A stretch of 54,644 nucleotides of DNA, taken from NCBI RefSeq assembly GCF_008933605.1, contig NZ_WBUS01000004.1, positions 1-54,644 on the forward strand. The letters are read 5' to 3'. This stretch comes from Albidovulum sp. (lineage in GTDB: Bacteria; Pseudomonadota; Alphaproteobacteria; Rhodobacterales; Rhodobacteraceae). Below the pieces are notes generated by a model that saw nothing but the letters and a program-made list of their open reading frames with translations, was not told the DNA's origin and searched no databases. Of this stretch, positions 4,610 to 22,945 are shown piece after piece (within the stretch, counting starts at the first letter, position 1; each line of letters starts with the position of its first letter). Both the position numbers and the translations under genes were made by a program.

Positions 4610-4694
4610 AGGCTTGAATCCGGTGACCGCCGGGTCAAGCATGGCCCGGCGGTTTACCCTGGACAACGACAACAGACCAACAGGAGACTCAACG

Positions 4695-5738: not shown

Positions 5739-5747
5739 CCACCGCAC

Positions 5748-5770: not shown

Positions 5771-5805
5771 TTTCCTTTCGGCCCTTCCCGTCGGAGACCC
5801 GGTCC

Positions 5806-6402
5806 ATGCTCGACAGCCTCCTCCACTCCGCACTCCGCCTGTCGCGAACCGCCGTAAGGATTGGCGGCGCGATGATCCTGTTCTCGGCGCTGATGGTCTG
5901 CGCCGATGTGTTGTCCCGGCGCCTGCTCGGCGTGACGATGAGCGGGTCGGATGAAATCTCCGGCTATCTCTTCGGCGTCGCGACGGCCCTGTCTTTGCCC
6001 TACGCGCTGCTGCACCGCGCCAATGTCCGCATCGACGCGGCCTATGTCCTGATGCCGGCGAAGGTCCGCTACGCGCTGGACCTGATGGGCCTCGCGCTGT
6101 TGACCGTATTCGCCGGTTTCGTGACCTGGCGCGCCGCGCTGGCGGTGCAGGTCACCTGGGTAAACGGCTCGCGCGCGATCACGCCGTTGCAGACGCCGCT
6201 GATCCTGCCGCAGTCAGCCTGGCTCATGGGCTGGCTTCTGCTCTGCCTTTGCCTCCTGCTGGTGCTGGCGGCCATGATCGCCGCCGGCATGAAGGGCGAT
6301 CTCGCGCGTGCCGACCGGATCGGCGGCATTCCCTCCGTTGAGGAAGAGATCGAAGAGGAAACCGCGGGCGTGCTGCCGCACCACACCATGAAGGAAGTGT
6401 AA
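5806..6402 (+). CDS. dctQ: TRAP transporter small permease, DctQ family
   Basis: A 198-residue membrane protein with the four-helix layout of DctQ subunits: helices near residues 20-40, 50-70, 85-110 and 140-165. The conserved early helix contains the sequence ADVLSRRLLG. The start at 5806 (MLDSLLHSAL) is preferred to an upstream ATG at 5758, which lies inside the loop of the intercistronic hairpin. It is followed after one base by dctM. It partners the large permease in Na+-driven uptake across the inner membrane. Confidence 0.88.
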   Translation: MLDSLLHSALRLSRTAVRIGGAMILFSALMVCADVLSRRLLGVTMSGSDEISGYLFGVATALSLPYALLHRANVRIDAAYVLMPAKVRYALDLMGLALLTVFAGFVTWRAALAVQVTWVNGSRAITPLQTPLILPQSAWLMGWLLLCLCLLLVLAAMIAAGMKGDLARADRIGGIPSVEEEIEEETAGVLPHHTMKEV

Positions 6403-6403
6403 G

Positions 6404-7926: not shown

Positions 7927-8832
7927 CTACCCGCCGGCCCCCAGTGTCAGCGACAGGAAGCTGCGGAAGACCTGGGCGGGCGCGGAGAGCGGACGGTCAC
8001 GGGACCAGGTCAGGCCCACATCCATCGACGGAACCGGCTCGACCGTGGTGCGCTGTTCGATCCGCTGCCCTTCCAGCGACCACGGCCGGTAGACCATGTC
8101 CGAAAGTATCGTCACCCCCATTCCGGCGGCCACCATCGAGCGGACTGCCTCGACCGAGGATGTGGAGAAGACGACGTTCGGCGCCAGCCCGTGGGCGTCC
8201 CAGTAGCGGCCGGCGGTGCGGCTCGCCTCGTCCACGGTCAGCATGACGTAGGGCTCGCGCGCGATGTCGCTTAGCGGGACACCCGGCGCGGCAAGCAGGG
8301 GGTGATCGGAGGGCAGCCAGAGCCGCCGGCGCGAGCGGAACAGGGTTTCGGCGTCAAGGTCCTCGTGGTTGGCAAGGTTCGACGTCAGCATGACGGCCAG
8401 GTCGAGTCCCCCGTCGACGAGGGCATTCTCGATCGCGGCGCGGGGCAGTTCGGTCAGTTCCAGCGTGACGCCGGGATAGCCGCGGCGGAAGGCGGCATAG
8501 TGGCGGGACATGAAATAGCCCGCCACCGTGTAGGTCACCCCCAGGCGAAGGCGCCCGATGATGCGCGTCTCCTCGCCCAACGGGCTGCGGGTGGCGTCTT
8601 CCACGGCGGCCATGATGCCACGCGCGCGGGCCAGGAAGCGCGCGCCCTCGGGGGTTACGGATACCCCTTGGGCGCTGCGGGACAGGAGCTTCACCCCCAG
8701 CGTCGACTCGAGCCCCTGGATGCCGGCGGTCACGGCGGATTGCGAGATGTTCATCTCCATCGCCGCATGGCTGATCTGCCCGGTCTCGGCCGCGGCGATG
8801 AAATAGCGCAGTTGCTTGAGCGTCAGCGACAT
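7927..8832 (-). CDS. LysR-family transcriptional regulator
   Basis: A 301-residue LTTR. The N-terminal HTH reads MSLTLKQLRYFIAAAETGQISHAAMEMNISQSAVTAGIQGLESTLGVKLLSR (residues 1-52, given here in part of its family pattern). An effector-binding domain follows from about residue 90. It is divergent from pxpA, 112 bases away, so it is the likely regulator of the pxpA-accBC-pxpBC operon (inference from LTTR custom). It converges with the TRAP operon on the other side. Confidence 0.88.
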   Translation of the reverse strand: MSLTLKQLRYFIAAAETGQISHAAMEMNISQSAVTAGIQGLESTLGVKLLSRSAQGVSVTPEGARFLARARGIMAAVEDATRSPLGEETRIIGRLRLGVTYTVAGYFMSRHYAAFRRGYPGVTLELTELPRAAIENALVDGGLDLAVMLTSNLANHEDLDAETLFRSRRRLWLPSDHPLLAAPGVPLSDIAREPYVMLTVDEASRTAGRYWDAHGLAPNVVFSTSSVEAVRSMVAAGMGVTILSDMVYRPWSLEGQRIEQRTTVEPVPSMDVGLTWSRDRPLSAPAQVFRSFLSLTLGAGG

Positions 8833-8944: not shown

Positions 8945-9670
8945 ATGCCTGTCACGGTCAACTGTGACATGGGGGAAAGCTTTGGCCTTTATCGCATGGG
9001 CGATGACGCCGGGCTGATGCCCTTGATCCATATCGCCAACGTGGCCTGCGGCTTCCATGCCAGCGACTTCGACCACATGCGCGCCACCGTGCGGCTTGCC
9101 AAGCGGCACGGGGTGAAGGTCGGCGCGCATCCGTCCCTGCCCGACCTGCAGGGCTTCGGCCGGCGCGAGATGAAGATGGGCCGCGAGGAGATGGCGAACT
9201 GCCTGATCTACCAGATCGGCGCGCTCTGCGGCTTCCTCAAGGCCGAGGGGATGGAGCTGAACCACATCAAGCCGCACGGGTCGCTCTACGGGATGGCGGC
9301 GCGGCAGGAAGACATCGCGCACGCGGTCTGCGACGCGGCGGACGTGTTCCGGGTGCCGCTTCTGGGAATGACCGGCACGCTGCACGAGAAGGTCTATCCG
9401 GCGCGCGGGCACGACTTCGTCGCCGAGTTCTACGCCGATCTCGAATACACCCCCGACGGCAGCCTGATCGTCACGCGCGAACATGACGCCAAGGATCCTG
9501 CCCTGATGGCCGCGCGCTGCCTGCGCGCAATCACCGAAGGCAAGGGCACGGCGATCGACGGCTCCGACATTCCCGTCCGCTGCGACAGCATCTGCATCCA
9601 TTCCGACACGCCGAACGCCATCGACATCGCCCGCGCGGTGCGGGCGGCGGTGCAGCCCTACACGATCTGA
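8945..9670 (+). CDS. pxpA: 5-oxoprolinase subunit A, LamB/YcsF family
   Basis: A 241-residue protein of the YcsF family, the A subunit of the bacterial ATP-dependent 5-oxoprolinase PxpABC. Family motifs are plain: VNCDMGESFG (4-13), ANVACGFHASD, GAHPSLPDLQGFGRREM, and NHIKPHGSLYG. The histidines and aspartates in these motifs are the presumed catalytic site for lactam-ring opening. The usual HAGD appears here as HASD. A strong GGGGAGGGG precedes the ATG. It is the first gene of a five-gene operon whose other members form biotin carboxylase and carboxyltransferase-like parts. The true ring substrate may be 5-oxoproline or another cyclic amide. Confidence 0.92.
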   Translation: MPVTVNCDMGESFGLYRMGDDAGLMPLIHIANVACGFHASDFDHMRATVRLAKRHGVKVGAHPSLPDLQGFGRREMKMGREEMANCLIYQIGALCGFLKAEGMELNHIKPHGSLYGMAARQEDIAHAVCDAADVFRVPLLGMTGTLHEKVYPARGHDFVAEFYADLEYTPDGSLIVTREHDAKDPALMAARCLRAITEGKGTAIDGSDIPVRCDSICIHSDTPNAIDIARAVRAAVQPYTI

Positions 9671-9681
9671 GAGGTTCCTCC

Positions 9682-9915
9682 ATGGCTCAGTTGCTTTCCC
9701 CCCTTCCCGGCACGTTCTACCGCGCCTCTGCCCCCGACAAGCCGCCGTTCAAGGCCGATGGCGACGCCGTCGCCGTGGGCGACGTGATCGGGCTGATCGA
9801 GGTGATGAAGTCGTTCCATGAGGTGAGGGCGGATGTCGCGGGCACCAGCATCCGCTTCGTTGCCGAGAATGAAGAGCCCGTGATGGCGGGCGCGGTTCTG
9901 GCCGAGGTCGGCTGA
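9682..9915 (+). CDS. Biotin carboxyl carrier protein (short, stand-alone biotinyl domain)
   Basis: A 77-residue protein that is nothing but a biotinyl domain. The acceptor motif is EVMKSFHE, with the biotin lysine at residue 43; this departs from the canonical AMKM of acetyl-CoA carboxylase, which suggests a specialised carrier. There is no Pro/Ala-rich N-terminal extension as in AccB of fatty-acid synthesis. Its stop overlaps the start of the biotin carboxylase gene by one base. It would carry CO2 from the biotin carboxylase to the PxpB/PxpC-type subunits encoded just after (inference). Confidence 0.88.
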   Translation: MAQLLSPLPGTFYRASAPDKPPFKADGDAVAVGDVIGLIEVMKSFHEVRADVAGTSIRFVAENEEPVMAGAVLAEVG

Positions 9916-11291
9916 TGCTGAGGAAGCTTCTGGTCGCCAACCGGGGTGAGATTGCCGTGCGGGTGATCCGCGCAGCGAAGGACCTCGGGATTGCGACCGT
10001 GGCCGTCCATTCGGACGCCGATCGCGAGTCCCTGCACGTCCAGATCGCGGACGAGGCCGTGAACATCGGCCCTCCGGCGGCGAAGAAGTCCTACCTGAAT
10101 GTCGCCGCGATCCTGGCGGCGGCCGAGGCGACCGGGGCGGACAGCATTCACCCCGGCTATGGCTTCCTGGCCGAGAATGCGGGCTTCGCCGACGCCTGCG
10201 TGGCGGCGGGGATCGCCTTCGTCGGCCCGTCGGCCGAGGCGATCCGCACCATGGGCGACAAGGTCGCCGCCCGGTCGGCCGCCCACGCGGCGGGAGTGCC
10301 GGTGGTGCCGGGCAGCATGGGCCGGGTGGCGGATATCGAGGAAGCGCGGCACATCCTGATGGACACAGGGTTCCCGGTGATGATCAAGGCCGCCGCCGGC
10401 GGGGGCGGCCGGGGCATCCGGATCGCGAATGACCTGGCCGAGTTCGAGGCCGCCTTCCCGCAGGCCGCGGCGGAGGCGCTGGCCGCCTTCGGCGACGGCG
10501 GGCTCTACATGGAAAAGGTGGTGACGAAGGCCCGCCACATCGAAGTGCAGGTGCTGGGCGACGGCACCAACGCGGTGCATTGCTGGGAGCGGGAATGTTC
10601 GCTTCAGCGGCGGCGGCAGAAGGTCTGGGAAGAGGCGCCGTCGCGCGCGCTCTCGGACCGGGTGCGGGACGAGCTTTGCGCCAGCGCGGTCCGTCTGGCC
10701 CGGGCGGTGGGCTATTCCGGCGCCGGCACCATCGAATACCTCTACGACGACGAGGCCGACCGCTTCCACTTCATCGAGATGAACACCCGCATCCAGGTCG
10801 AGCATCCGGTGACCGAGATGATCACCGGGATCGACCTGGTGGCCGAGGGTCTGCGCATCGCGGGGGGTGAACCCCTGCGCCTGCAACAGCGCGAGATCGT
10901 CGCGCGCGGCCATGCCATCGAGGTGCGGCTCAATGCCGAGGACCCGTCGCGCGACTTCGCCCCCTTCCCGGGCACCGTCAGCGCGCTCAGGGTTCCGGGA
11001 GGGCCGGGGGTGCGGTTCGAGTCCATGCTCTACGCCGGATATACCGTGCCGCCGTTCTATGACTCGCTTCTGGCCAAGCTGGTGGTGCATGGCGAGACGC
11101 GCGAGGCCGCGATCACGCGGCTGGTCAGGGCCCTGGGCGAGACCCGGATCGAGGGCCTGCGCACCACGAAACCCCTCTTCCTCGCGCTCGCCGGTGATCC
11201 GGCGGTGCAGGCCAATGCCGTTCACACCCGCTGGCTGGAAGGCTGGCTGGAAACTCATTCCGCCCGGCTGGTGCCGGACCTCGAACCATAG
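9915..11291 (+). CDS. Biotin carboxylase subunit (AccC family)
   Basis: A 458-residue biotin carboxylase: ATP- and bicarbonate-dependent carboxylation of the biotin on the carrier. Visible motifs are KLLVANRGEIAVR (4-16), the glycine loop AGGGGRGIR (161-169) of the ATP-grasp fold, HIEVQVLGD, and the catalytic segment EMNTRIQVEHPVTE (288-301). A C-terminal biotin-carboxylase domain begins with HAIEVRLNAEDP. It is full length for the family. Because it sits between a biotin carrier and PxpB/PxpC genes, it is more likely dedicated to a urea-carboxylase-like reaction than to acetyl-CoA carboxylation (inference). Confidence 0.93.
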   Translation: MLRKLLVANRGEIAVRVIRAAKDLGIATVAVHSDADRESLHVQIADEAVNIGPPAAKKSYLNVAAILAAAEATGADSIHPGYGFLAENAGFADACVAAGIAFVGPSAEAIRTMGDKVAARSAAHAAGVPVVPGSMGRVADIEEARHILMDTGFPVMIKAAAGGGGRGIRIANDLAEFEAAFPQAAAEALAAFGDGGLYMEKVVTKARHIEVQVLGDGTNAVHCWERECSLQRRRQKVWEEAPSRALSDRVRDELCASAVRLARAVGYSGAGTIEYLYDDEADRFHFIEMNTRIQVEHPVTEMITGIDLVAEGLRIAGGEPLRLQQREIVARGHAIEVRLNAEDPSRDFAPFPGTVSALRVPGGPGVRFESMLYAGYTVPPFYDSLLAKLVVHGETREAAITRLVRALGETRIEGLRTTKPLFLALAGDPAVQANAVHTRWLEGWLETHSARLVPDLEP

Positions 11292-11299
11292 GAGGGACC

Positions 11300-12175
11300 A
11301 TGTCGATCCGATTCACCTTCGGGGGCGACGAGCATATCTTCGGGGAGGTCTCCGAGGATATGTCGCTCGAGTCTTTCTTCACCTCGCTCAGCATGACCAA
11401 TGCCGTGCGCGAGGCGGGGATCAGGGGCGTGACCGAGATCTGCCCGGCGAACGCCAGCTTCCAGATCAAGTTCGACCCGGACGCGATCAGGCCGGACGAC
11501 CTCTTGAAGGAGTTGAAGGGCATGGAGGCCGCGGCGGCGAAATCCGACGCGATCCTGAAGACCCGGATCATGGAAATCCCCGTGTTCTACCAGGACCCCT
11601 GGACGCAGGAGACGCTGATGCGCTTTCGCGAGCGGCACCAGGACCCGACGAAGACCGACCTTGAATATGCCGCAGAGGTGAACGGCCTCGGCACGGTCGA
11701 GAACTTCATCAAGGCACATTCGAGCCAGCCCTGGTTCGTCTCGATGGTCGGCTTCGTGGCGGGGCTGCCGTTCCTCTACCAGATGGTGGAGCGCAAGCGG
11801 CAGTTGCAGGTGCCGAAATACCTGCGCCCGCGCACCGACACGCCGAAGCTGACCATCGGGCATGGCGGCTGCTTTTCCTGCATCTACTCGGTACGGGGCG
11901 CGGGCGGCTACCAGATGTTCGGCATCACGCCGATGCCGATCTACGACCCGAACCAGCAGGTCAGCTACCTGCAAGACGAGATGTGCCTCTTCCGGCCCGG
12001 CGACATCGTGAAGTGGAAGCCGATCGGCCGCGACCAGTACGACGCGACGATCGAGGCGGTGGAGGCGAACCGCTTCGAGCCGGTGATCCGGCCTGCGACC
12101 TTCAGCCTGACCGATTTCAACAGGGACATGGCCGGCACCAATGCCAAGCTGATGGAGGCGCTCAATGGCCGTTAA
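11300..12175 (+). CDS. pxpB: 5-oxoprolinase subunit B / allophanate hydrolase subunit 1 family (PxpB, KipI-like)
   Basis: A 291-residue AHS1-domain protein. The C-terminal half carries the family signature GFVAGLPFLYQM and GGCFSCIYSVRGAGGYQMFGITPMPIYDP, corresponding to the GF.PGf.yl and G..GG...iyp..sPGG...iG.tP elements of KipI. It is longer than typical PxpB (about 220) through extra residues around 100-130 (WTQETLMRFRERHQDPTKTD), a feature resembling the AHS1 part of urea carboxylases. GGAGGGA precedes the ATG. It overlaps pxpC by 11 bases. PxpB and PxpC together form one catalytic module in known systems. Confidence 0.9.
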   Translation: MSIRFTFGGDEHIFGEVSEDMSLESFFTSLSMTNAVREAGIRGVTEICPANASFQIKFDPDAIRPDDLLKELKGMEAAAAKSDAILKTRIMEIPVFYQDPWTQETLMRFRERHQDPTKTDLEYAAEVNGLGTVENFIKAHSSQPWFVSMVGFVAGLPFLYQMVERKRQLQVPKYLRPRTDTPKLTIGHGGCFSCIYSVRGAGGYQMFGITPMPIYDPNQQVSYLQDEMCLFRPGDIVKWKPIGRDQYDATIEAVEANRFEPVIRPATFSLTDFNRDMAGTNAKLMEALNGR

Positions 12176-13133
12176 GGTGATCTCCCCGGGCCTGTCCACC
12201 ACCGTGCAGGACCTAGGCCGCCCCGGTTACTACCATCTTGGCATCCCGATTTCAGGCGGCATGGACCGCTTCTCGCTCCGCGCGGCCAACATGCTCGTCG
12301 GCAACGACGAGGGCGCGGCGGTGCTGGAGGCCGTGTTCCTGGGGCCGGAGCTGGAATTCACGGCGCCCGCGACCGTCGCCGTCACCGGCGGTGACCTGCC
12401 GCCGAAGCTGAACGGCGCGGATCGCCAGGGATGGGAGGCCTTCCCGGTCAAGGCGGGGGACCGGCTGTCGTTCGGCTTCCTGAAATCCGGCGCGCGGGCC
12501 TATATAGCGGTCTCGGGCGGGATCGACGTTCCGATGACGCTCGGGTCGCGGTCCACCTACACGCTTGGCGCACTGGGCGGCCACGAAGGGCGCGCGCTGA
12601 AGGCGGGAGACGAGTTGCCGGTCGGCGATGGTGCGGGCGGCAAGGGCGCGATTCCGGCCGGGCTGCGGCGGATGCCGGCAAGCCCGGCCGAGCTCAGGAT
12701 GCTGCCGGGGCTCTACTGGCACCGGATCACGGCGGAATCGGGCAAACGGTTCTTCGCCGACACCTGGAAGGTTGCACCCGAGGCGGACCGGATCGGCTAC
12801 CGTTTCCGGGGCGGCACGGCGCTGGACTTCGTTCCGCGCGAGCAGCCCTTCGGCGCGGGGTCGAACCCGTCGAACATCGTCGATGCCTGCTACCCCTATG
12901 GCTCCGTCCAGGTTCCCGGCGGGACGGAGCCCATCGTGCTGCATCGCGACGCGGTCTCGGGCGGGGGCTACATGATGCTCGGCTGCGTGATCAGCGCCGA
13001 CATGGACCTGATCGGACAGCTACAGCCGCATGCGCCCGCCCGGTTCGTCGAGGTGACGATGGATCAGGCGCTGGCCGCCCGCCATGACCGGCAGGCGGCC
13101 ATCCAGCGCGTCCGCGACCACCTGGGGCGGTAG
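12165..13133 (+). CDS. pxpC: 5-oxoprolinase subunit C / allophanate hydrolase subunit 2 family (PxpC, KipA-like)
   Basis: A 322-residue AHS2 protein. The N-terminus has the classic pattern SPGLSTTVQDLGRPGYYHLGI..SGGMD, followed by ANMLVGNDEGAAVLEAVFLGPELEF. KipA proteins usually show SGAMD where this has SGGMD. The domain is the homologue of half the carboxyltransferase domain of urea carboxylase. The start codon lies inside the pxpB coding end (11-base overlap), a sign of coupled translation and a fixed subunit ratio. It ends the operon, 70 bases before the convergent AraC-type gene. Confidence 0.92.
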   Translation: MAVKVISPGLSTTVQDLGRPGYYHLGIPISGGMDRFSLRAANMLVGNDEGAAVLEAVFLGPELEFTAPATVAVTGGDLPPKLNGADRQGWEAFPVKAGDRLSFGFLKSGARAYIAVSGGIDVPMTLGSRSTYTLGALGGHEGRALKAGDELPVGDGAGGKGAIPAGLRRMPASPAELRMLPGLYWHRITAESGKRFFADTWKVAPEADRIGYRFRGGTALDFVPREQPFGAGSNPSNIVDACYPYGSVQVPGGTEPIVLHRDAVSGGGYMMLGCVISADMDLIGQLQPHAPARFVEVTMDQALAARHDRQAAIQRVRDHLGR

Positions 13134-13203: not shown

Positions 13204-14148
13204 TCAGCCGCGGCCCCTTGCCTCTTTCGGGGGCACTCCGAAACGGGCGCGGAAGGCGCGGGAAAACTGTGCCTGGTCGGTGAAGCCGCGGGCATAGGCG
13301 ATCTCGCCGATACCGCGCCGGTCGGCCGGGTTGGTCAGATCCTCCATCGCCGCCTGCAGGCGGGTGTCGCGGATCCACTGGCCGAGCGTCGTGTTCGTGT
13401 CGCGCAGAAGCTCGTGCAGGTAGCGCACCGAGATGCCGCAGCCCGCCGCCACTTCCTCGGGGCCAAGGTCGGGGTCGTCGATGTTGCGGCGAACGAAGGC
13501 TTCGATCCGCGCCAGGTGGGCCGTGCGCACCGTCGAGCTGCCCGAGGTCAGCACCCGTTCGTCGGACTGGATGGCGAGAGCGAGCAGATCCACCAGTTGC
13601 CGGCCGACGATGGTGCGGGTTTCCTCGGTCATCGCGTCGTAGCGCTGCGGGATCAGGTGGACCATATCGACGAAGAGACCGTTCGCCCCGTTGGTCGCGT
13701 CGAATTGCAGCGAGCAGAAGCGGTCGGGCGCGCGAATCCGGCCGCCCAGCAGATCCTTGCCGAGCTTCATCACCCAGAGGTCGGCCGGCTCGCCGTGGGA
13801 AAACTCGTAGGGCTCGTGGCTGCGTTCGATGAAGAAGGCGCCGGGGTTCGCCCTCACCTCCTTGCCGCACTGGGAAAAACGCACCTCGGCTTTCGCCGGC
13901 AGGGTGACGAGGAACTCCTCTGGCCCGGGCTCGCGGAAATGCTTGGGCAGCCGGCGGTACATCAGCGCCTCGGAGGTCAGCCGCGACAGCGAGACACCGC
14001 CAAGGTCCCAGCTGGTGAGTTCTCCATCGAAGGCCTCGGGACGGGCAAAGGTCAGGTCCAGCGGAAAGTAGGCCCTGGCGATGGTTTCATGCCAGTGGCG
14101 GCTGCGGACAGCCTGATCCACCCCGCGGGTCGTGATGGTGGTCTTCAT
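13204..14148 (-). CDS. AraC-family transcriptional regulator
   Basis: A 314-residue regulator. The start at 14148 (MKTTITTRG) is preferred over longer in-frame starts because GGGGAGGA lies just before it. Residues about 30-190 form an AraC-binding-like sensor domain (pattern LPKHFREPGPEEFLVTLP...VRANPGAFFIERSHEPYEF). The C-terminal double HTH covers about 210-310 and includes GISVRYLHELLRDTNTTLGQWIRDTRL and GFTDQAQFSRAFRARFGVPP. It is divergent from the hyuB operon and is its probable activator (inference). Confidence 0.9.
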   Translation of the reverse strand: MKTTITTRGVDQAVRSRHWHETIARAYFPLDLTFARPEAFDGELTSWDLGGVSLSRLTSEALMYRRLPKHFREPGPEEFLVTLPAKAEVRFSQCGKEVRANPGAFFIERSHEPYEFSHGEPADLWVMKLGKDLLGGRIRAPDRFCSLQFDATNGANGLFVDMVHLIPQRYDAMTEETRTIVGRQLVDLLALAIQSDERVLTSGSSTVRTAHLARIEAFVRRNIDDPDLGPEEVAAGCGISVRYLHELLRDTNTTLGQWIRDTRLQAAMEDLTNPADRRGIGEIAYARGFTDQAQFSRAFRARFGVPPKEARGRG

Positions 14149-14402
14149 CGGGTCCTCCCCCCTTGCCCGCATCAGGCCATGCGCGAACCCACCTGTAAAG
14201 TGGCCTGTCGGCCCGCGGCCGCGGGATGCGCGGAAACGCAAGAACGCGTGCACGCGCTGCAAAGACGTCCCCGGCCCGGCGCCGCTAGCGTCCTGTCATC
14301 AACGGCGCAACAGACGCCGCGCGACAGGGATGGAAGGCGATTCGCCCGGGTCCGGGACCCGGACGGCCACCCGTTGCGCGGCCCCAGAGTGAGGGCTTCG
14401 TG

Positions 14403-16187
14403 ATGGCCGAAAAGCCAAGGAAAAAGCTGGATGTCGATCCGATCACCCTTTCGGTGGTCCGCGGCATCCTGGAGACGACGCAGCGCGAAATGACGCTGTC
14501 GCTGGAAAAGACCGCCCGCTCCAGCGTGTTCAACCTGGCGCATGACTATTCGACGGCGCTCTTCAACCACCGGCCGGAGATGATCCTGCAGGGCCAGGAC
14601 ATTCCGATCCACCTCGGCTCGCTGATCCCGGCAATGAAGGTCGTGGCGAAGTACTTCGAGGGCGACATCCACGAAGGCGACCTCATCATCCACAACGACC
14701 CGGCCTGGGGCGGCAGCCATGCCATCGACACCTGCTTCTACCGGCCGGTCTTCTGGAAGGGGAAACTGAAGTACTGGACCGTCTGCAAGGGCCACCTGAC
14801 CGACGTGGGCGGGCCGGTGCCTGCCGGCTACAACCCGAACGCCCGGGAAATCTATGCCGAATGCCTGCGCATTCCGCCGGTCAAGGTCTGGGACCGGGGC
14901 CAGCCGCGCAAGGATGTGCTGAACTTCATCCTGACCAACATGCGCGCCCGGCGCGATCAGGAGGGCGACTTCAACGCCCTGATCGGCGCCTGCCAGGTGG
15001 GTGAACGCGCGCTTCTGGCGATGCTGGAGAAATACGGCGAGGAGCAGGTGGACGCCTGCATCGACATGCTTCTCGACATGGCCGAGAAGCAGATGCGCGG
15101 CCTGATCGCCGCGGTGCCGGACGGGACCTACGAGGGCTCGGCGATCCTCGAGGACGCGGGCCACGGCTTCGGCGATTTCGAGATCAAGGCCAAGGTCACG
15201 ATCAAGGGCGACAGCTGCCACATCGCGATCTCCTCGCCGCCGCAGATCCCCTATTTCATCAACAGCTACGAGGGGAACAGCCACTCCGGCGTCTACCTGG
15301 GCCTGATGATGTTCGCCCAGTTGCCGCCGCCCTACAATGAAGGGCTTTATCGCTGCGTCACGGTGGATTTCGGGCCGAAGGGCACGATCTGCAACGCGCA
15401 GGAACCGGCGCCGCACATGAACTGCACCACGACGCCGATGGAGACGCTGACCGACGCGGTGCGGCTTGCGTTCGAAAAGGCGGTGCCGTCCAAGGTCAGC
15501 GCATCCTGGGGCCATGCGAACGGCCTGAACATCGCGGGCTGGGACAAGCGGCACGACGAGGAATACGTGACGATGGTGCTGGCCACCATCATCTCGGGCG
15601 CGGGCGCGACGCCCAGCCAGGATGGCTGGCACGCCTGCGGGCCGGAGTGCTGCTTCGGCGCGCTGACGAGCGGCGACGTGGAACTCTTGGAGTACAGCTA
15701 CCCCATCATCATCCATCGCTATTCGCTGATGACCGACAGTGGCGGCGCGGGGAAATTCCGCGGCGGCAGCGGCACCGCCTGGGAAGTCGAGCCCCTCAAC
15801 GACGACATGACCTTCATCACCTTCGGCGAGGGCCGCCGCATCCCGGCGGTGGGCGCGGCCGGGGCGGCCAGCACGATGATCGACACCAAGGTCGGGCGGC
15901 TGGAACTGGTGGAAGGCAAGACCAAGGAGACGATCCGCGAGAACGTCATCAAGATCATCAAGCCCGGCGACCGCATCACCAACATGAACCCCGGCGGCGG
16001 CGGCTATGGCGACCCGATGGACCGGGCTGTGGAAAAGGTCATCTGGGATGTGAAGAACGGGCTCGTCTCGGTCAACGGCGCGAAGGAGGATTACGGCGTC
16101 ATCATCACCGACCCTGCCACGCTGAGCGTGGACATGAAGGCAACCGAAGCCCTGCGCGCGAAGCGTCGCGCCGTGGCCGCGAAGTGA
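14403..16187 (+). CDS. hyuB: Hydantoinase B / 5-oxoprolinase beta-type subunit (HyuB family)
   Basis: A 594-residue HyuB protein. Its family works with HyuA in ATP-dependent opening of 5-membered amide rings (N-methylhydantoin, 5-oxoproline) and in related lactamases or carboxylases. Metal-site elements are visible: IHNDPAWGGSHAIDTCF and KGHLTDVGGPVPAG, containing the Asp and His ligands. ATG at 14403 is preferred over GTG at 14400 because GAGGG at 14391-14395 then has 7-base spacing. It leads a seven-gene operon, 13 bases before hyuA. The third (gamma) subunit of acetone carboxylase is absent, so hydrolysis is more likely than carboxylation. Substrate is unknown. Confidence 0.9.
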   Translation: MAEKPRKKLDVDPITLSVVRGILETTQREMTLSLEKTARSSVFNLAHDYSTALFNHRPEMILQGQDIPIHLGSLIPAMKVVAKYFEGDIHEGDLIIHNDPAWGGSHAIDTCFYRPVFWKGKLKYWTVCKGHLTDVGGPVPAGYNPNAREIYAECLRIPPVKVWDRGQPRKDVLNFILTNMRARRDQEGDFNALIGACQVGERALLAMLEKYGEEQVDACIDMLLDMAEKQMRGLIAAVPDGTYEGSAILEDAGHGFGDFEIKAKVTIKGDSCHIAISSPPQIPYFINSYEGNSHSGVYLGLMMFAQLPPPYNEGLYRCVTVDFGPKGTICNAQEPAPHMNCTTTPMETLTDAVRLAFEKAVPSKVSASWGHANGLNIAGWDKRHDEEYVTMVLATIISGAGATPSQDGWHACGPECCFGALTSGDVELLEYSYPIIIHRYSLMTDSGGAGKFRGGSGTAWEVEPLNDDMTFITFGEGRRIPAVGAAGAASTMIDTKVGRLELVEGKTKETIRENVIKIIKPGDRITNMNPGGGGYGDPMDRAVEKVIWDVKNGLVSVNGAKEDYGVIITDPATLSVDMKATEALRAKRRAVAAK

Positions 16188-16200
16188 GGGGGATGAGACG

Positions 16201-18291
16201 ATGAAATCCGATTACAGACTGGGGATCGACGCGGGCGGCACCTTCACCGACTTCGTGCTGGCCGACAAGTCCGGGCAGGTCCGACTCTTCAAGGCGTTGA
16301 GCACGCCGCAGGATCCGACGCTCGCGATCCGGAACGGCCTCGCGCTGATCTCCGAGGAGCTTGGGGTTCCGGCGGAAACCGTGGTGTCGAACTGCGACCT
16401 CTGCATCAACGGCACCACGGTGGGCCTGAACGCGCTGATCCAGCTGAAGGGGGCGAAGACCGGCCTCATCTGCACCGCCGGACACGAGGATTCGCTCGAG
16501 ATCCGCCTCGGCCACAAGGAAGACGGCTACCGCTACGACCCGGAATACCCGCCCGCAACCATGCTGGTGCCGCGTTTCCTGCGGCAGGGCGTGCGGGAGC
16601 GGGTGCTGTCGGATGGCAGCGTGCGCGAGGCGCTGAACGAGGCGGACGTGCGGGCGGCCTGCGAACTGTTCAAGGCCGAAGGTGTGGAGACGGTGGCGAT
16701 CAGCTTCGTCTGGTCGGTGCTGAACCCCGCGCACGAGGCCCGTGCAGCGGAAATCGTGCGCGAGATGATGCCGAGCGTAGTCCTGACCGTGGGGAGCGAG
16801 CTCTACCCGCAGGTGAGGGAATACACCCGCACCTCCACTGCCGTGGTGAACGCCTACCTCGCGCCGATCATGAAGCGCTACGTCGACGCGGTGGATGCCT
16901 ATTTCCGCAGCCTCGGGGCCAAGCAGCCGGTGCGCTACTACCAGTCGAACGGCGGGCTTGCCATCGGTCAGGCGATGACCGACCGCAGCGTCTATGCCAT
17001 CAACTCGGGTCCTGCCTCGGCCCCCGCCGCCGGGCAGTATGTCTGCGAGCCCTTCGGCAAGAAGGACGTGATCACCGTCGACATGGGCGGCACCTCCTTC
17101 GACATCACGCTGACGAAGGACGGCTCCACCAACATCAACAAGAACATCGATTTCCTGCGCTACCGCATCGGCGTGCCGATGATCCAGGTGGAAACCCTCG
17201 GCGCGGGTGGCGGCTCGATCGGCTGGATCGACGAGATGGGGCTGATGCAGATGGGCCCGCAATCGGCCGGCTCCGACCCCGGGCCGGCCTGCTATGGCCA
17301 GGGGGGCAAGCTGCCGACGGTGTCGGACGCGAACCTCGTCCTTGGCTACCTGAACCCCGACGGGCTCGTCGGCGGGCGGCTGCCGCTCGATGCCGCGAAG
17401 GCGCATCAGGCGATCAAGTCCAACCTCGCCGACCCGCTGAAGATGAGCGTTGAGCGCGCCGCCTACGGCATGTTCACCATCGTCAACGCCAACATGGTGA
17501 ATGGCATCCGCCGCGTCACCGTCGAACGCGGCTATGACCCGCGCGACTTCGTCCTGGTCGGCGCGGGGGGCGCGACGGCGGCGCATATCACCGCGCTCGC
17601 CGAGGCGATGGGGATCGACACCATCGTCCTGCCGAAACTCGCCTCGGGCCTCTGCGCCTTCGGCCAGATCATCTCGGACGTGAAATACAACTACATGGCC
17701 ACCGCGCCCCTGCGGCTGGACAACGACGCGGCTTATGCCCGGATCGACGAACTCTTCGGCCAGATCGAAGCGCAGGGCATCGGACATCTGAAGTCTGATG
17801 GCTTCAAGGGCAAGGACATCGTCATCAAGCGCAGCCTCGACATGCGCTACGTCGGCCAGGTCCACGAATGCACGGTGGAAATCGGCACCTTCAAGGTGGA
17901 CGCCAAGTCGATCGGCAAGGTCAAGGACGCCTTCCACAAGCGTCACAAGGAACTCTACACCTATGCCGAGCCGGCCTCGACCGTTGAAGTGGTGAACATC
18001 GAAAGCACGCTTTATGGCGTGGTCGACAAGCCCGCCCGCATGGCGATCGGCAGGGGCGCAAGCCCGGCGAAGGCGCTGAAGGGTTACCGCGACGCGGTGT
18101 TCAGCGCCGACGGCAAGCGGGTGAAGACGCCGATCTACGACGGCACCCCGCTGGGCGTCGGCGCCACGATCAAGGGGCCGGCGGTGATCGAGGAGGTCAC
18201 CACCACCATCGTGATTGAGCCGGGCTGGACCGCGAAGCTGGATGCCAGCGGCTCCTACCTCATCACCCGTGACCGGAAAGGAGCGAGATGA
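16201..18291 (+). CDS. hyuA: Hydantoinase A / 5-oxoprolinase alpha-type ATPase subunit (HyuA family)
   Basis: A 696-residue HyuA protein with an ASKHA-type ATPase fold. The phosphate-1 loop is GIDAGGTFTD (residues 8-17). Further family segments are TVDMGGTSFDITL, GAGGGSIGWID, AGSDPGPACYG and LVGAGGATAAHITALAEAMG. It phosphorylates the ring carbonyl with ATP and hands it to HyuB for hydrolysis in characterised relatives. Its last four bases overlap livG (ATGA), which ties ring opening to uptake in one message. Full length for the family (about 690-710). Confidence 0.92.
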   Translation: MKSDYRLGIDAGGTFTDFVLADKSGQVRLFKALSTPQDPTLAIRNGLALISEELGVPAETVVSNCDLCINGTTVGLNALIQLKGAKTGLICTAGHEDSLEIRLGHKEDGYRYDPEYPPATMLVPRFLRQGVRERVLSDGSVREALNEADVRAACELFKAEGVETVAISFVWSVLNPAHEARAAEIVREMMPSVVLTVGSELYPQVREYTRTSTAVVNAYLAPIMKRYVDAVDAYFRSLGAKQPVRYYQSNGGLAIGQAMTDRSVYAINSGPASAPAAGQYVCEPFGKKDVITVDMGGTSFDITLTKDGSTNINKNIDFLRYRIGVPMIQVETLGAGGGSIGWIDEMGLMQMGPQSAGSDPGPACYGQGGKLPTVSDANLVLGYLNPDGLVGGRLPLDAAKAHQAIKSNLADPLKMSVERAAYGMFTIVNANMVNGIRRVTVERGYDPRDFVLVGAGGATAAHITALAEAMGIDTIVLPKLASGLCAFGQIISDVKYNYMATAPLRLDNDAAYARIDELFGQIEAQGIGHLKSDGFKGKDIVIKRSLDMRYVGQVHECTVEIGTFKVDAKSIGKVKDAFHKRHKELYTYAEPASTVEVVNIESTLYGVVDKPARMAIGRGASPAKALKGYRDAVFSADGKRVKTPIYDGTPLGVGATIKGPAVIEEVTTTIVIEPGWTAKLDASGSYLITRDRKGAR

Positions 18292-19040
18292 GCGAACTCA
18301 GCGCAGACAAGGTATCGGTCGCATTTGCCGGGCTGAAGGCGCTGTCGGGCGTTGACCTGACCGTCGCCTCCGGCCAGATCGTCGGGCTGATCGGCCCGAA
18401 CGGAGCGGGCAAGACCACCCTTGTCAATGTGCTGACCGGGTTTCAGGCCGCAACCGAAGGCTCTGTCCGGCTGGACGGGCAGGGCCTTTCGGGCCTGAGG
18501 CCGCACGAGGTGCGCCGCCGGGGCATCGCCCGCACCTTCCAGGGCGGGCGGCTCTTCCGTGACCTTCCCGTCATCGACAACCTCGAAGTCACCGGCGTCG
18601 GCCTTGGCCAGTCGCGCAAGGCCGCGATCGCCGAGGCCGAGGCGATGCTCGACTGGGTCGGCATCGCGCCGCTGGCGAACCGCATCGCGGGCACCCTGCC
18701 CTACACGGATGAACGCCGCGTCGCCATCGGCCGGGCGCTGATGGGCAGGCCGGCCTTCCTGCTTCTCGACGAACCCGCCGCCGGGATGAGCGCGCAGGAG
18801 GCGGCCGAGCTTTCCGCCCTGATCCGCCGCATCGCGGAAGAACTGGGCTGCGGCGTCCTTCTGATCGAACACAACGTCGGGCTGGTGCTCGGCCTCTGCG
18901 ACCACATCGTCGTGCTCGATTCCGGCGCCGTCATCGAGACCGGCCCGCCGGCGGCCATCCGCGACAGCGAAAGGGTGCGCCACGCCTACATGGGCACCGC
19001 GGCGGAGACCGACCTTCCCGTGCTGGAGGTGGAGGCATGA
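18288..19040 (+). CDS. livG: Liv-type ABC transporter ATP-binding protein (LivG family)
   Basis: A 250-residue ATPase. Walker A is GPNGAGKTT (36-44), Walker B is FLLLDEPAAGM, and the H-loop region is LLIEHNVGLVLGLCDHIVVLD. The signature motif is altered to LPYTDERRV; LivG proteins usually have a PYG-type motif in this place, so the change is mild. It contains the LivG-type C-terminal region with a short tail. It overlaps hyuA and livF by 4 bases each. It energises uptake through LivHM; given the operon the cargo is probably a cyclic amide or its product, not a branched-chain amino acid (inference). Confidence 0.9.
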   Translation: MSELSADKVSVAFAGLKALSGVDLTVASGQIVGLIGPNGAGKTTLVNVLTGFQAATEGSVRLDGQGLSGLRPHEVRRRGIARTFQGGRLFRDLPVIDNLEVTGVGLGQSRKAAIAEAEAMLDWVGIAPLANRIAGTLPYTDERRVAIGRALMGRPAFLLLDEPAAGMSAQEAAELSALIRRIAEELGCGVLLIEHNVGLVLGLCDHIVVLDSGAVIETGPPAAIRDSERVRHAYMGTAAETDLPVLEVEA

Positions 19041-19771
19041 GCCTTCTGGCGCTCTCCAACGTCTCGGTCCGCTATGGCCGCCTGACCGCCGTCCGCGGCG
19101 TGACCTTCACCCTCGCCGAGGGCGAGATCCTGTTCATCACCGGGCCGAACGGGGCCGGCAAATCCTCGCTCCTGCGCGCCATCGCCGGGGTCGCGCCGCC
19201 CGCCGGAGGCCGGGTCGACTTCGCCGACCACGACATCACCGGCCAGGCGCCGGAGGATATCGCTCGGTTGGGCCTTTCGATGGTGCCCGAGGGGCGGGAC
19301 GTATTCGGCAGCCTGACCATCGAGGAAAACCTGATGGTGGGGACGGGGATGCATTCGGCGACGCGGGGCTGGAAGGCCCGGGCGGCGAGCGAGCTGGAGG
19401 CGGTCTATGCCACCTTCCCGATCCTGAAGGAACGCCGCCACACCCAGGCCGGGCTCCTGTCGGGCGGCCAGCAGCAGATGCTGGTCATCGGCCGGGCGCT
19501 GATGACGACGCCGCGGCTGGTGGCCATCGACGAGCCCTCGCTCGGCTTGGCGCCGAACATCACTGACCAGGTTTACGAACGCCTCATCGCGCTCAGGGCC
19601 GAACGCAAGCTGACGCTCCTGATCGTCGAGCAATCCTCGACCCGGGCGATGATGGTGGGCGGGCGGATGATGCTCATGCGCGGGGGCGAGATCGTGCTGG
19701 ACGGCGACGCGCGCGCGCTCGGGCAAAGCGAGGCGATGCAGGCCGCCTATTTCGGATACGGAGAGCATTGA
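19037..19771 (+). CDS. livF: Liv-type ABC transporter ATP-binding protein (LivF family)
   Basis: A 244-residue ATPase with Walker A GPNGAGKSS (36-44), Q-loop region SMVPEGRDVFGSLTIEENL, signature LLSGGQQQML and Walker B VAIDEPSLGLAP. PEGR in the Q-loop is typical of LivF. It ends with the short FGYGEH tail seen in this family. Start overlaps the livG end by four bases and its stop overlaps the livH start by one. Forms the nucleotide-binding heterodimer with LivG at the inner membrane. Confidence 0.9.
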   Translation: MSLLALSNVSVRYGRLTAVRGVTFTLAEGEILFITGPNGAGKSSLLRAIAGVAPPAGGRVDFADHDITGQAPEDIARLGLSMVPEGRDVFGSLTIEENLMVGTGMHSATRGWKARAASELEAVYATFPILKERRHTQAGLLSGGQQQMLVIGRALMTTPRLVAIDEPSLGLAPNITDQVYERLIALRAERKLTLLIVEQSSTRAMMVGGRMMLMRGGEIVLDGDARALGQSEAMQAAYFGYGEH

Positions 19772-20685
19772 TGGGATCGCTTCTCCAGATTGTCTTCGAC
19801 GCGCTGTCGCTGGGGTCGCTCTATGCCCTGGGAGCGCTGGGGATCGCGCTGATCTTCGGGGTGATGCGGCTGGTGAACTTCGCCCATGGCGACGTGATCG
19901 CCGCCTGCGTCTTCGCGCTGCTCTGGCCTTCGGTCGATGCGGTGGCCATCGTCTTCGCCGGCAACCTGCCGTGGTTCCTGCTGATCCCCTTCGTGCTGGC
20001 CGTCGGCGCGGGCCTTTCGGTGCTGTCGGAACTGGTGGTGTTCCGCCGCTTCCGGCGGGCGAATCCCGCCACTATGATGATCGCCTCCTTCGGCCTTGGC
20101 TTCGTGATCCGCTACTTCCTGCTGATGCTGTTTTCCAGCCGCCCGAAGAGCATTTCCCTGCTGCCGACACTCTCGCAGCCCGTCGAGATCCTCGGTGCGC
20201 GCATTCCGCTGCTGCAGCTCATCACCATCCTCGTCACCGTCGCCGTGCTTTTCGGCCTGACGGCCTTCCTGCGCCGGACGCGGTTCGGGCTCGAGATGCG
20301 AGCGGCGGCAGAGAACTTCACCATGGCGCGGATGCTGGGGGTGCGGGCGAACCGGGTGATCATGGGGGCCTTCGCCCTCTCGGGGGCGCTCGCGGCGGCG
20401 ATCGCGCTGATCCTCGGGTCGCAGACCGGGACGGCGAACATCATGATGGGGGCGAATGTGATGCTGATGGCCTTCATCGCCACCGTGATCGGCGGCATGG
20501 GAAGCCTTGCCGGCGCCGTGCTCGCCGGGTTCCTGCTGGGCACGGTGGCGACCGTGATGCAGGTGATCCTGCCGCCCGACGCCCGCGCCTTCCGCGATGC
20601 CTTCGTCTACGGCGCGGTCATCCTCGTGCTGATCTTCCGCCCGCAGGGCCTCCTTTCCGCCCGCGGCACCAAGGAGCGTGTCTGA
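19771..20685 (+). CDS. livH: Liv-type ABC transporter permease (LivH family)
   Basis: A 304-residue, about eight-helix permease. The family opening LSLGSLYALGALGIALIFGVMRLVNFAHGD is plain at residues about 10-38. Near the C-terminus come VIGGMGSLAGAVLAGFLLG and the end motif ILIFRPQGL. The start at 19771 uses ATG directly overlapping the livF stop, rather than an upstream TTG. Together with LivM it forms the translocation pore. Confidence 0.9.
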   Translation: MGSLLQIVFDALSLGSLYALGALGIALIFGVMRLVNFAHGDVIAACVFALLWPSVDAVAIVFAGNLPWFLLIPFVLAVGAGLSVLSELVVFRRFRRANPATMMIASFGLGFVIRYFLLMLFSSRPKSISLLPTLSQPVEILGARIPLLQLITILVTVAVLFGLTAFLRRTRFGLEMRAAAENFTMARMLGVRANRVIMGAFALSGALAAAIALILGSQTGTANIMMGANVMLMAFIATVIGGMGSLAGAVLAGFLLGTVATVMQVILPPDARAFRDAFVYGAVILVLIFRPQGLLSARGTKERV

Positions 20686-20686
20686 G

Positions 20687-21736
20687 ATGTCCCGCTCCCC
20701 CCTCCGCCGTTCGCTTGCCACGCCGGTCCTCCTCGGCCTCATCCTCGTGGCCTTCGCGCTCGTCGCCTGGGCCGTGGGGTCGAAGCCCTTCAACCAGACG
20801 ATCATCGACATCTTCCTGAAGGTGATCTTCGCCGTCGGCCTCTGGGTCTTCATCGGCAACTCGGGCGTCATCAGCTTCGGCCACATCGCCTTTGCCTGCC
20901 TTGGCGGCTATGTCGCCGCCTGGACCACGATCAAGCCGATGATGAAGGGCATCTCGATGCCGGGGCTGCCCGACTGGCTCATGCAGACGGAAATCCCCTA
21001 CTGGGCCGCCGCCGCCGTCGGAGCGGGCTGGGCCGCGGTCTGGGCGCTGATCTTTGGCGCCGTCCTGATGCGGCTGTCGGGCATCGCCGCCTCGATCGCC
21101 ACCTTCGCGATGCTGGCCATGGTGAACTCGATCTACTCGAACTGGGACAGCGTGACGGCGGCCACGTCCTCGGTCGTGGGCATTCCCATCGTCCGCTCGG
21201 TCTGGCCCTATCTGATCGCCGCGATCCTCGCCGTCGTCCTCGGCTGGGCCTATGGCATCTCGCGCCACGGCCTCGCGCTGCGCGCGGCGCGCGACGAACC
21301 CACGGCCGCCGCCGCCAGCGGGGTGAACATTCCCCGGATGCGGCTCATCGCCTTCGTCGTCTCGGGCGCGATCATGGGGATGGGGGGCGCGCTTTACGCG
21401 CATTCGATCGGCATCGTCACGCCCGACACCTTCTACCTCGGCCTCACCTTCATCACACTGTCCATGCTCGTCGTCGGCGGCATGGGCTCGCTTTCGGGCG
21501 CCGTCCTGGGCGTGCTCTTCCTCTCCTCGCTGATCCAGGGCCTGCGCTGGCTCGAGGCCGGGGTGCAGGTCGGGACCAGCACCTTCGCCCTTCCCGGCGG
21601 GGTGCAGGAAATTGCCCTCGGCGCAGTGATGATCCTCATCCTCATGTTCCGGCCCGCCGGGATCATGGGCAACCGCGAACTGACCCTGCCGCGCGCGGGA
21701 TCGGACACCCCGGGCCGGAGCGGCCCCACCAACTGA
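20687..21736 (+). CDS. livM: Liv-type ABC transporter permease (LivM family)
   Basis: A 349-residue membrane protein. AAGGAG at 20671-20676 is well spaced from ATG 20687, which decides the start against a GTG nine bases earlier. LivM features are visible: GNSGVISFGHIAFACLGGYVAAW, RHGLALRAARDEPTAAAASGVN, and VVGGMGSLSGAVLG, with the terminal ILMFRPAGIMG. It follows livH after one base. Partner of LivH in the membrane domain. Confidence 0.9.
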   Translation: MSRSPLRRSLATPVLLGLILVAFALVAWAVGSKPFNQTIIDIFLKVIFAVGLWVFIGNSGVISFGHIAFACLGGYVAAWTTIKPMMKGISMPGLPDWLMQTEIPYWAAAAVGAGWAAVWALIFGAVLMRLSGIAASIATFAMLAMVNSIYSNWDSVTAATSSVVGIPIVRSVWPYLIAAILAVVLGWAYGISRHGLALRAARDEPTAAAASGVNIPRMRLIAFVVSGAIMGMGGALYAHSIGIVTPDTFYLGLTFITLSMLVVGGMGSLSGAVLGVLFLSSLIQGLRWLEAGVQVGTSTFALPGGVQEIALGAVMILILMFRPAGIMGNRELTLPRAGSDTPGRSGPTN

Positions 21737-21766
21737 GCAACTGCTGACCAACAAGGAGTGAACGCA

Positions 21767-22945
21767 ATGAAAAGACTTCTGATCGCGCTGGCCGCCACCA
21801 CCTGCCTTACCGCGCCGGCGCTGGCCGACGACGACCGCATCGTCGTCGGCTTCGCCACCGCCGAGACCGGCTTCATGCAGGCCTATGACAAGCCCGCCCA
21901 GGACGCGGCGATGATCCGCATCAAGGAGATCAACGACGCCGGCGGCCTCTTGGGCAAGCAGATCGAGGTGGTGAACGCCGACACCAAGACCGACCGCGCC
22001 GAGGGCGCCAAGGCGGGCCTCTCGGTCATCGACGCGGGCGCCGACATGGTCGTCGTCTCCTGCGACTACGACTTCGGCTCCCCGGCTGCGCTCGCCGCCG
22101 AAAGCTCGGGCCTGGTGTCGTTCTTCCTCTGCGCGGAATCGATCAAGGCCGGCATCCAGGGCGTCGGGCCGAACAGCTTCTCGGCCTCGGTCCTCGCCGC
22201 CGTGCAGGGTGCGACCATGGCCGAGTGGGCCTACACCAAGAAGGAAGCCCGCAGCTTCTACCGCCTGCTCGACACCTGGACCGAATACAACAAGGGCATC
22301 TGCGACGGCTTCGACTGGATGCTGCCGCAACTGGCCGACGCGAGCCTTGTGGGCGAGGACACGTTCCTGAACGAAGACGCCTCGATCGCCGCGCAGATCA
22401 CGCGCATCAAGTCGCTGCCGGAGGAGCCCGACGCGATCATGCTGTGCACGATGATGCCGGGCGCGGTTTCGGCCATCAAGCAGATCCGCGCCGCCGGGAT
22501 CAACTCGATGATCCTGAACGGCTCCGGCGTCGACGGCAGCTACTGGCTCAGCGCCGTGCCGGACCTGTCGAACTTCTTCGTCCCGGTGCAAGGGTCCATC
22601 TACGGCGATGACCCGAACCCGGAAGTGACTGCCTTCAATGCCAAGTACAAGGACGCGACGGGCGGCGATCCCAGCACGCAGTACGTCTACCCCGGCTACG
22701 TGATGATCGACGTCTGGGCCAAGGCGGTGGAACGGGCCGGGACGACGGAGACCAGCGCCGTGGTGGCCGAACTGGAGAAGATGAGCGGCGAGCCGACGCT
22801 TTTCGGACCGCGCACCTTCACCAGCGAAATCCACCACCAGAACCAGGCGCGCTACCTGATCGTCGAGACCGACGCCGGCAAGCCCGGCGTGGTGGACGAG
22901 TGGACGATCTCGAAACCGATTCCGGTCGCCGACCTGATGAAATAG
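21767..22945 (+). CDS. livJ: Liv-type ABC transporter solute-binding protein
   Basis: A 392-residue secreted periplasmic-binding protein, type 1 fold. The start at 21767 follows AAGGAG at 21753-21758 and begins a signal peptide (MKRLLIALAATTCLTAPALA, cleavage near 20). The mature part has the family pattern IVVGFATAETGFMQAYDKPAQDAAMIRIKEINDAGGLLGKQIEVV (two segments). It closes the hyuBA-livGFHMJ operon and sits just before the terminator. Several tryptophans and cysteines set it apart from classic LivJ, so an amide or hydantoin ligand is plausible, but the ligand cannot be read from sequence. Confidence 0.9.
   Translation: MKRLLIALAATTCLTAPALADDDRIVVGFATAETGFMQAYDKPAQDAAMIRIKEINDAGGLLGKQIEVVNADTKTDRAEGAKAGLSVIDAGADMVVVSCDYDFGSPAALAAESSGLVSFFLCAESIKAGIQGVGPNSFSASVLAAVQGATMAEWAYTKKEARSFYRLLDTWTEYNKGICDGFDWMLPQLADASLVGEDTFLNEDASIAAQITRIKSLPEEPDAIMLCTMMPGAVSAIKQIRAAGINSMILNGSGVDGSYWLSAVPDLSNFFVPVQGSIYGDDPNPEVTAFNAKYKDATGGDPSTQYVYPGYVMIDVWAKAVERAGTTETSAVVAELEKMSGEPTLFGPRTFTSEIHHQNQARYLIVETDAGKPGVVDEWTISKPIPVADLMK

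Follow-up and report, generated by a model that had tools for sequence, protein, structure and literature searches.

Several described systems resemble, each in part, a cluster of five genes (pxpA, biotin carrier, biotin carboxylase, pxpB and pxpC) at positions 8945-13133 of contig NZ_WBUS01000004.1 of Albidovulum sp. (RefSeq assembly GCF_008933605.1), of which the whole stretch of 54,644 nucleotides was analysed and is called the window below. Urea carboxylase (Kluyveromyces lactis, 3va7 and 5i8i; TIGR02712) has the same four modules, a sister carboxyltransferase, and an insert, a PSN-D-Y pattern and a catalytic lysine in common with the cluster. The window differs from it by separate genes, a PxpA partner, a biotin carboxylase that is ungrouped with that of urea carboxylase in the best tree (the grouping is not rejected) and a carrier with EVMKS, where 13/13 urea carboxylases have E(S/A)MKM. 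5-Oxoprolinase PxpABC (YbgLJK of Escherichia coli; Bacillus subtilis) likewise brings PxpA, PxpB and PxpC homologues together, whereas the window has a dedicated carrier and carboxylase, a lysine for an arginine and an insert in PxpB, and PxpB and PxpC scores below the NCBIfam cut-offs. The five genes are best read as a separate-subunit biotin-dependent carboxyltransferase, which probably N-carboxylates a lactam that PxpA then opens.

The first-pass annotation of the window had contrasted the cluster with E. coli PxpABC as an enzyme without biotin subunits. That contrast is an assumption: AccB and AccC occur in E. coli too. The chains of Mycobacterium smegmatis 9yx5 (long-chain acyl-CoA carboxylase with MSMEG_0435-MSMEG_0436 bound), a structure for which no paper was found in the literature searched, include AccA3 and two AHS subunits, which shows that ordinary PxpB/PxpC homologues can associate with a complex that contains a biotin carboxylase/carrier subunit; the carboxylase there is the shared AccA3 complex, unlike the dedicated one of the window. 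Ordinary-type PxpBC with biotin genes (L189-L194, Proteobacteria; L155, a Levilactobacillus plasmid) also combines pxp genes with a biotin carboxylase, but has an arginine-type PxpB without the insert, and ycsI-like genes lie near some of these clusters. Caprolactamase CapAB of Pseudomonas jessenii, which is not known to have a biotin carrier, belongs to the HyuA/HyuB family and not to the PxpBC family. Its opening of lactams is ATP- and bicarbonate-dependent, according to PMC8453981, and close homologues are encoded in the window at 14400-18291.

In agreement with the earlier remark that such a reaction was not known for clusters of this kind, no biotin-dependent pxp cluster was found described in the literature searched; Niehaus et al. 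(2017) and Fan et al. (2012) may mention such clusters. An extra carrier/carboxylase pair and pxpB/pxpC of Lactiplantibacillus are treated as separate matters in PMC12427679.

Layout of the five-gene cluster

All five genes are on the forward strand, and their coordinates bear out the earlier description of an order in which the genes overlap or nearly touch. The pxpA gene (8945..9670) is followed after 11 base pairs (bp) by the carrier gene (9682..9915), which overlaps the biotin carboxylase gene (9915..11291) by 1 bp; 8 bp further on lies pxpB (11300..12175), which overlaps pxpC (12165..13133) by 11 bp. With Pfam and NCBIfam the products were assigned to LamB_YcsF/PxpA, Biotin_lipoyl, biotin carboxylase (three domains), CT_C_D and CT_A_B, respectively, and every module of urea carboxylase is thus present as a separate gene, as had been claimed.

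PxpA (241 amino acids (aa); LamB/YcsF family), the proposed ring-opening hydrolase, scored 301.5 bits on PF03746 and 274 bits on NF003814 (cut-off 226). The stand-alone carrier of 77 aa matched PF00364 and reached 114.5 bits on NF005457 (cut-off 87), with K43 of its EVMKS motif (codon 9808..9810, numbered from the translation) as the expected biotin-accepting lysine. The biotin carboxylase of 458 aa carries PF00289, PF02786 and PF02785, with 737.9 bits on NF009471 (cut-off 686). The predicted carboxyltransferase subunits are PxpB (AHS1, 291 aa), which has a urea-carboxylase-type insert and a C-terminal extension, and PxpC (AHS2, 322 aa).

PxpB and PxpC as a probable carboxyltransferase

PxpB scored 106 bits on the urea carboxylase model TIGR02712 versus 69 bits on the PxpB model TIGR00370 (cut-off 145.55), and PxpC reached 218 bits on the 5-oxoprolinase model NF045499 (cut-off 500). 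The cut-off of TIGR02712 is 1303.85 bits, and the scores of PxpC (227) and the biotin carboxylase (522), like that of PxpB, are those of single proteins and not of a one-polypeptide enzyme. For the alignment of PxpB and PxpC, 65 sequences were used (17 window-type with the window included, 13 urea carboxylases and 35 ordinary; 23 rows were printed), and the trees were constructed on columns filled in 90% of the rows, with eight long-branch ordinary rows dropped (L139, L134, L114, L129, L128, L107, L106 and L113). The window type was grouped with the 13 urea carboxylases at a support of 100/99 for PxpB and 99/98 for PxpC. When all 65 rows were kept, the PxpB split was unchanged (99), and in PxpC ord_L114 was attached beside both groups and ord_L129 just outside. 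A constraint holding the window type with the biotin-linked ordinary sequences L115, L120, L132 and L133 was rejected for PxpB (p 0.028) and was not rejected for PxpC (p 0.218).

The PxpB insertion of the urea-carboxylase kind reported in the first-pass annotation is real: by alignment it spans about residues 101-117 (11600..11650) and is common to urea carboxylase and absent in ordinary PxpB. At the position of PxpB K173 (codon 11816..11818), all 17 window-type sequences and all 13 urea carboxylases have lysine, and 35/35 ordinary PxpB, six of which have biotin genes nearby, have arginine; lysine was also found there in the 11/11 plasmid loci described below, three of them being among the 17 window-type rows. 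By alignment, K1605 of K. lactis urea amidolyase falls on K173. In PMC5770610, K1605 is named as most likely the general base in carboxyl transfer, and the K1605A exchange is reported as a severe inhibition that leaves the yeast enzyme with a kcat of 0.095 relative to wild type. PxpC residues 225-246 (REQPFGAGSNPSNIVDACYPYG; 12837..12902) carry a pattern common to urea carboxylase that is mostly a gap in ordinary PxpC; at D240, aspartate was present in at least 90% of the window-type rows and of the urea carboxylase rows, and serine in 34/35 ordinary rows, with a gap in the remaining one. For the predicted structure of PxpB, at middling model confidence, the best match was urea carboxylase, and the fold match of PxpC, also at middling confidence, does not discriminate. 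The trees and the kept lysine confirm the kinship of AHS1 and AHS2 that had been proposed: at the level of sequence, PxpB and PxpC of the window are closest to the carboxyltransferase of urea carboxylase, with K173, in the place of K1605, as the predicted catalytic base of its type.

Biotin carboxylase and biotin carrier

A careful tree of 68 biotin carboxylases and a separate quick tree were built. In the former, the AccC clade of 23 rows (100/95) contained no window type, and the window-type carboxylases formed their own clade of 17 (100/99), or of 18 with Rhodococcus (96/85). Holding the window carboxylase with AccC was not rejected (approximately unbiased (AU) test, p 0.119), nor was holding it with urea carboxylase (AU p 0.161), with which it is not grouped in the best trees. 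In the quick tree, the urea carboxylase domains fell with the carboxylases on contigs C213 and C214 of the genome, which are taken for the methylcrotonyl- and propionyl-CoA types. The same tree placed 5/7 carboxylases of the ordinary biotin-linked clusters in a clade of their own, with L155 and L193 near AccC, and the Haladaptatus carboxylase with the ordinary biotin-linked clusters and not with the window type (p 0.083 when held in the latter). The view of the cluster as a urea carboxylase split into four genes is only partly right and, as worded, not supported: kinship holds for the carboxyltransferase (PxpB and PxpC), and the best trees place the biotin carboxylase apart from that of urea carboxylase.

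The carrier of 77 aa is too short for phylogeny, and genomic linkage was used in its place. EVMKS was found in 71/77 relatives with a carrier and EVMKT in 6/77, and distant carriers vary (EIMKS, EVMKN, EVMKQ and GVMKN). The motif that had been called unusual is thus real but normal in near relatives and variable in distant ones; as a mark of an odd carrier it was rejected, and AccB of the same genome differs anyway (EAMKT).

The outcome in which the carboxylase groups with AccC in a genome without another acc copy was sought; in the best tree the carboxylase lies outside AccC, and other acc genes are present. Four further biotin carboxylase genes were found in the genome, with an AccB-AccC pair on contig C256 and accA on another contig, and none of the five cluster genes is accA or accD (accD was not searched for elsewhere in the genome). 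A second pxpB-pxpC-pxpA set is present on contig C270 (G000:C270, L020, 7666-10210), and the 15.8 kb covered there contain no biotin genes. The PxpB of this set carries arginine in place of K173 and scored just 83 bits on TIGR00370, also below the cut-off; the window PxpA aligns throughout with the second PxpA of the genome. Because of this second pxp set and the acc genes of the genome, the cluster is needed neither for a 5-oxoprolinase role nor for an acc role.

Conservation of the linkage

In a contig scan with the window PxpB, at least 582 stretches were found to encode a relative, and the best 80, mostly from Alphaproteobacteria, were used for the locus counts. All five genes were present in the same order in 77/80 of these best relatives, and the remaining 3 are truncated by contig ends. 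In a plasmid search, 89 records matched at 1e-50 and 11 window-type loci of 19-21 kb each were opened; 11/11 contained all five genes, in several orders. These loci include Diaphorobacter and also Rhodococcus, Rubrobacter and two haloarchaea, with PxpB of just 43-48% identity; in the Haladaptatus plasmid locus the carboxylase is reversed and the carrier comes last. As gene order differs among the plasmid loci, the linkage has outlived rearrangement.

The carrier family NF005457 was over its cut-off in 17/192 genomes of the class, at 18 places, of which 17 were fetched. The carriers of more than 100 bits, the window's included, adjoin pxpA or pxpB in 14/14 cases. Three weaker matches (87-92 bits; L216-L218) have no pxp gene within their 3.2 kb; the cut-off is slightly loose, as 4/18 places score 87-92 bits, 3 of those 4 having been fetched.

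Some loci depart from the common pattern. In L206 (G164:C144) the order is pxpA-carrier-pxpB-pxpC without a biotin carboxylase gene in between, and this cluster perhaps borrows a carboxylase from elsewhere. In L158, L200, L201 and L234-L236 (also L086 and L095), PxpA is just about 43-45% identical to that of the window at a PxpB identity of 59-74%; PxpA seems to have been exchanged there, perhaps along with a change of substrate. For the ordinary type, a biotin carboxylase gene was found beside 5/30 best-scoring pxp loci (at most 3.6 kb each). PxpB and PxpC are fused in L189 and L190, as are the carboxylase and the carrier, and the run of L155 (Levilactobacillus brevis plasmid) is pxpB-pxpC-carrier-carboxylase-'putative hydro-lyase'-pxpA-NRAMP.

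Neighbouring genes and candidate substrates

Divergent from pxpA lies a LysR-type gene (7927..8832, reverse strand), the probable regulator, and a LysR match was found somewhere in 73/80 related loci. Beyond it, as seen from pxpA, are a TRAP transporter (4596-7687) and an isochorismatase-family hydrolase (3887-4609) that overlaps the TRAP genes at their start; enzymes of this family include carbamoyl-amide hydrolases. On the other side, a reversed AraC-type gene (13204-14262) separates pxpC from two forward genes for the subunits of an ATP-dependent lactamase, hyuB/CapB-like (14400..16187; NF050157, caprolactamase subunit beta, 1093 bits versus 1000) and hyuA/CapA-like (16201..18291; NF050156, 1251.6 bits versus 1000). 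These genes are associated with the five-gene enzyme and lie outside it; both were found at 75% identity or more in 18/80 loci. They are followed by five forward genes (18288..22945) for an amide or amino-acid ABC transporter of the Liv/Urt type, the probable uptake system, whose top NCBIfam matches come from the Liv and Urt models, every one below its cut-off. At least four of the five transporter genes were found at 60% identity or more in 52/80 loci, hyuBA-free ones among them. A class-III aminotransferase domain is encoded about 38 kb from the cluster (51572-53416).

Neighbours were compared between 63 window-type loci of at least 20 kb and 20 ordinary pxp loci of at least 15 kb, with probes derived from window-type loci. 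A class-III aminotransferase was found in 27/63 window-type loci versus 1/20 ordinary loci (the single one, L254, was counted at 34% identity), and molybdenum hydroxylases in 26/63 versus 1/20; the Fisher values of 0.002 ignore relatedness. Of the ordinary 20-kb regions (n = 20), 18 had been picked from loci known to be without a biotin carboxylase and 2 (G131 and G099) were unseen beforehand, so that their lack of one says little; prior to this selection, the proportion with a carboxylase was the 5/30 given above.

Among all 80 loci, 30 have an aminotransferase; in 24 of them it is most similar to a general aminotransferase, in the other 6 to the γ-aminobutyrate (GABA) transaminase probes. 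Six aminotransferases were scanned: three passed the GABA transaminase cut-off NF005692, a fourth passed TIGR00700, L041 passed just an 'aminotransferase' subfamily and L157 passed none. Of the adjoining dehydrogenases, 2/2 passed the succinate-semialdehyde dehydrogenase cut-off TIGR01780. One of the four GABA-transaminase-passing loci, L026, has a PxpB 90% identical to that of the window, and in Ruegeria TM1040 both enzymes are annotated beside the cluster. Genes like ycsI and NRAMP, with probes taken from an ordinary-type locus, were near 0/80 window-type loci versus 6/28 and 4/28 other pxp loci, respectively. Because of these aminotransferase and dehydrogenase neighbours and the 0/80 counts, an omega-amino acid is favoured over glutamate as the product. 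It might be formed from a lactam, e.g. 4-aminobutyrate from 2-pyrrolidone, as the neighbours in relatives hint, the GABA reading being drawn from 6/30 aminotransferase loci.

Two further loci have particular surroundings. Shell genes of a bacterial microcompartment lie in the cluster region of L156 (Rhodococcus jostii RHA1 pRHL2), together with genes for an aldehyde dehydrogenase and an aminotransferase. By the cluster of L235 (Agrobacterium rubi pW2_73_1) are an LLM-type oxidoreductase, the F420 genes cofC, cofD, cofE and cofH, and gabT, which suggests that a step of the same pathway depends on F420.

Proposed mechanism and alternative explanations

A biotin-dependent carboxyltransferase is strongly suggested by the data above. 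In the proposed scheme, the biotin carboxylase, as expected from its families, would spend ATP and carboxylate biotin on the small carrier; PxpB-PxpC, judging by their kinship and K173, would transfer the carboxyl group to a cyclic amide, at the ring nitrogen, with K173 as the base; PxpA, in view of its constant presence and by comparison with the way allophanate hydrolase acts after urea carboxylase, would hydrolyse the N-carboxylated, activated ring; and the carbamate would then lose CO2 to give a linear amino acid. The scheme would mirror the succession of urea carboxylase and allophanate hydrolase, and ATP would drive a ring opening that is unfavourable without it. Hydrolysis of caprolactam is given as 23 kJ/mol uphill in PMC8453981, and ATP coupling is therefore needed for such lactams. 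The complex, the N-carboxylation and the order of the steps are what we infer. Of the earlier proposal of a biotin-dependent carboxylation before or with ring opening, the carboxylation step is the best reading of the carboxyltransferase kinship and the lysine; the lactam acceptor is a tentative candidate drawn from neighbouring genes in relatives. Against the residues that link the window type with urea carboxylase, 5 PxpB and 3 PxpC columns join it with ordinary sequences; against a GABA-type product, the window itself carries CapBA and Liv genes by the cluster in place of GABA-type neighbours.

The same biotin mechanism could instead act on 5-oxoproline (or its D-form), and the cluster would then encode a second 5-oxoprolinase under other control. 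PxpA is over the cut-off of the NCBIfam PxpA subfamily NF003814, and ycsI-like genes adjoin some biotin-linked clusters with an ordinary PxpB (L189 and L192; the 'putative hydro-lyase' of L155), YcsI being a glutamate cyclase. Such a role is unlikely all the same, given the other pxpBCA set of the genome, the 0/80 counts of ycsI-like and NRAMP-like genes at window-type loci with probes of ordinary-type origin and the scores of PxpB and PxpC below the NCBIfam 5-oxoprolinase cut-offs, below which the other PxpB of the genome falls too. Still less probable is an acceptor that is not a ring, namely a urea-, guanidine- or amide-like compound whose carboxylated product is cleaved by PxpA or a neighbouring amidase. 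Urea carboxylase as the nearest carboxyltransferase, the transporter of Liv and Urt likeness and the amidase genes annotated near 2/11 plasmid loci (L157 and L232) would fit it; PxpA is nevertheless present in 77/77 complete clusters and 11/11 plasmid loci, two amidase probes gave matches at 0/80 window-type loci (no search was made for allophanate hydrolase itself), caprolactamase-like genes stand by the cluster in the 18/80 loci given above, and the stretch next to the lysine, KYLRPRTDTP, is unlike KYNPARTWTP of urea carboxylase.

That spare acetyl-CoA carboxylase subunits merely stand, by chance or for regulation, next to a plain PxpABC is most improbable. NCBIfam does call the carrier and the carboxylase acetyl-CoA carboxylase parts, over the cut-off, and the AU test does not reject the carboxylase with AccC; on the other side are the five genes kept together in nearly all loci despite changed order, the best tree, which places the carboxylase outside the AccC clade, K173 kept in PxpB, the absence of accA and accD from the five genes and accA on a different contig. 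A wider and doubtful possibility is that PxpABC is generally biotin-dependent: PxpB/PxpC, which have a fold in common with a carboxyltransferase, would carboxylate the lactam nitrogen and draw the carboxybiotin for it either from dedicated subunits, as in the window cluster and no fewer than two further arrangements, or from the acetyl- or acyl-CoA carboxylase of the cell, and the ATP use ascribed to PxpBC would be that of the biotin carboxylase.

Significance

If N-carboxylation by the cluster is true, it would be an undescribed route to open stable cyclic amides, in which CO2 is placed by biotin on the ring nitrogen and hydrolysis follows. Opening of lactams is useful where solvents and the precursors of nylon are to be broken down. 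For the ordinary PxpABC 5-oxoprolinase, how ATP is spent becomes a testable question. Genes for PxpB relatives are common, as the at least 582 stretches from a single genome scan indicate, and public records label the cluster genes as parts of acetyl-CoA carboxylase and of 5-oxoprolinase or allophanate hydrolase, so that they may be misread in models of lipid and nitrogen metabolism.

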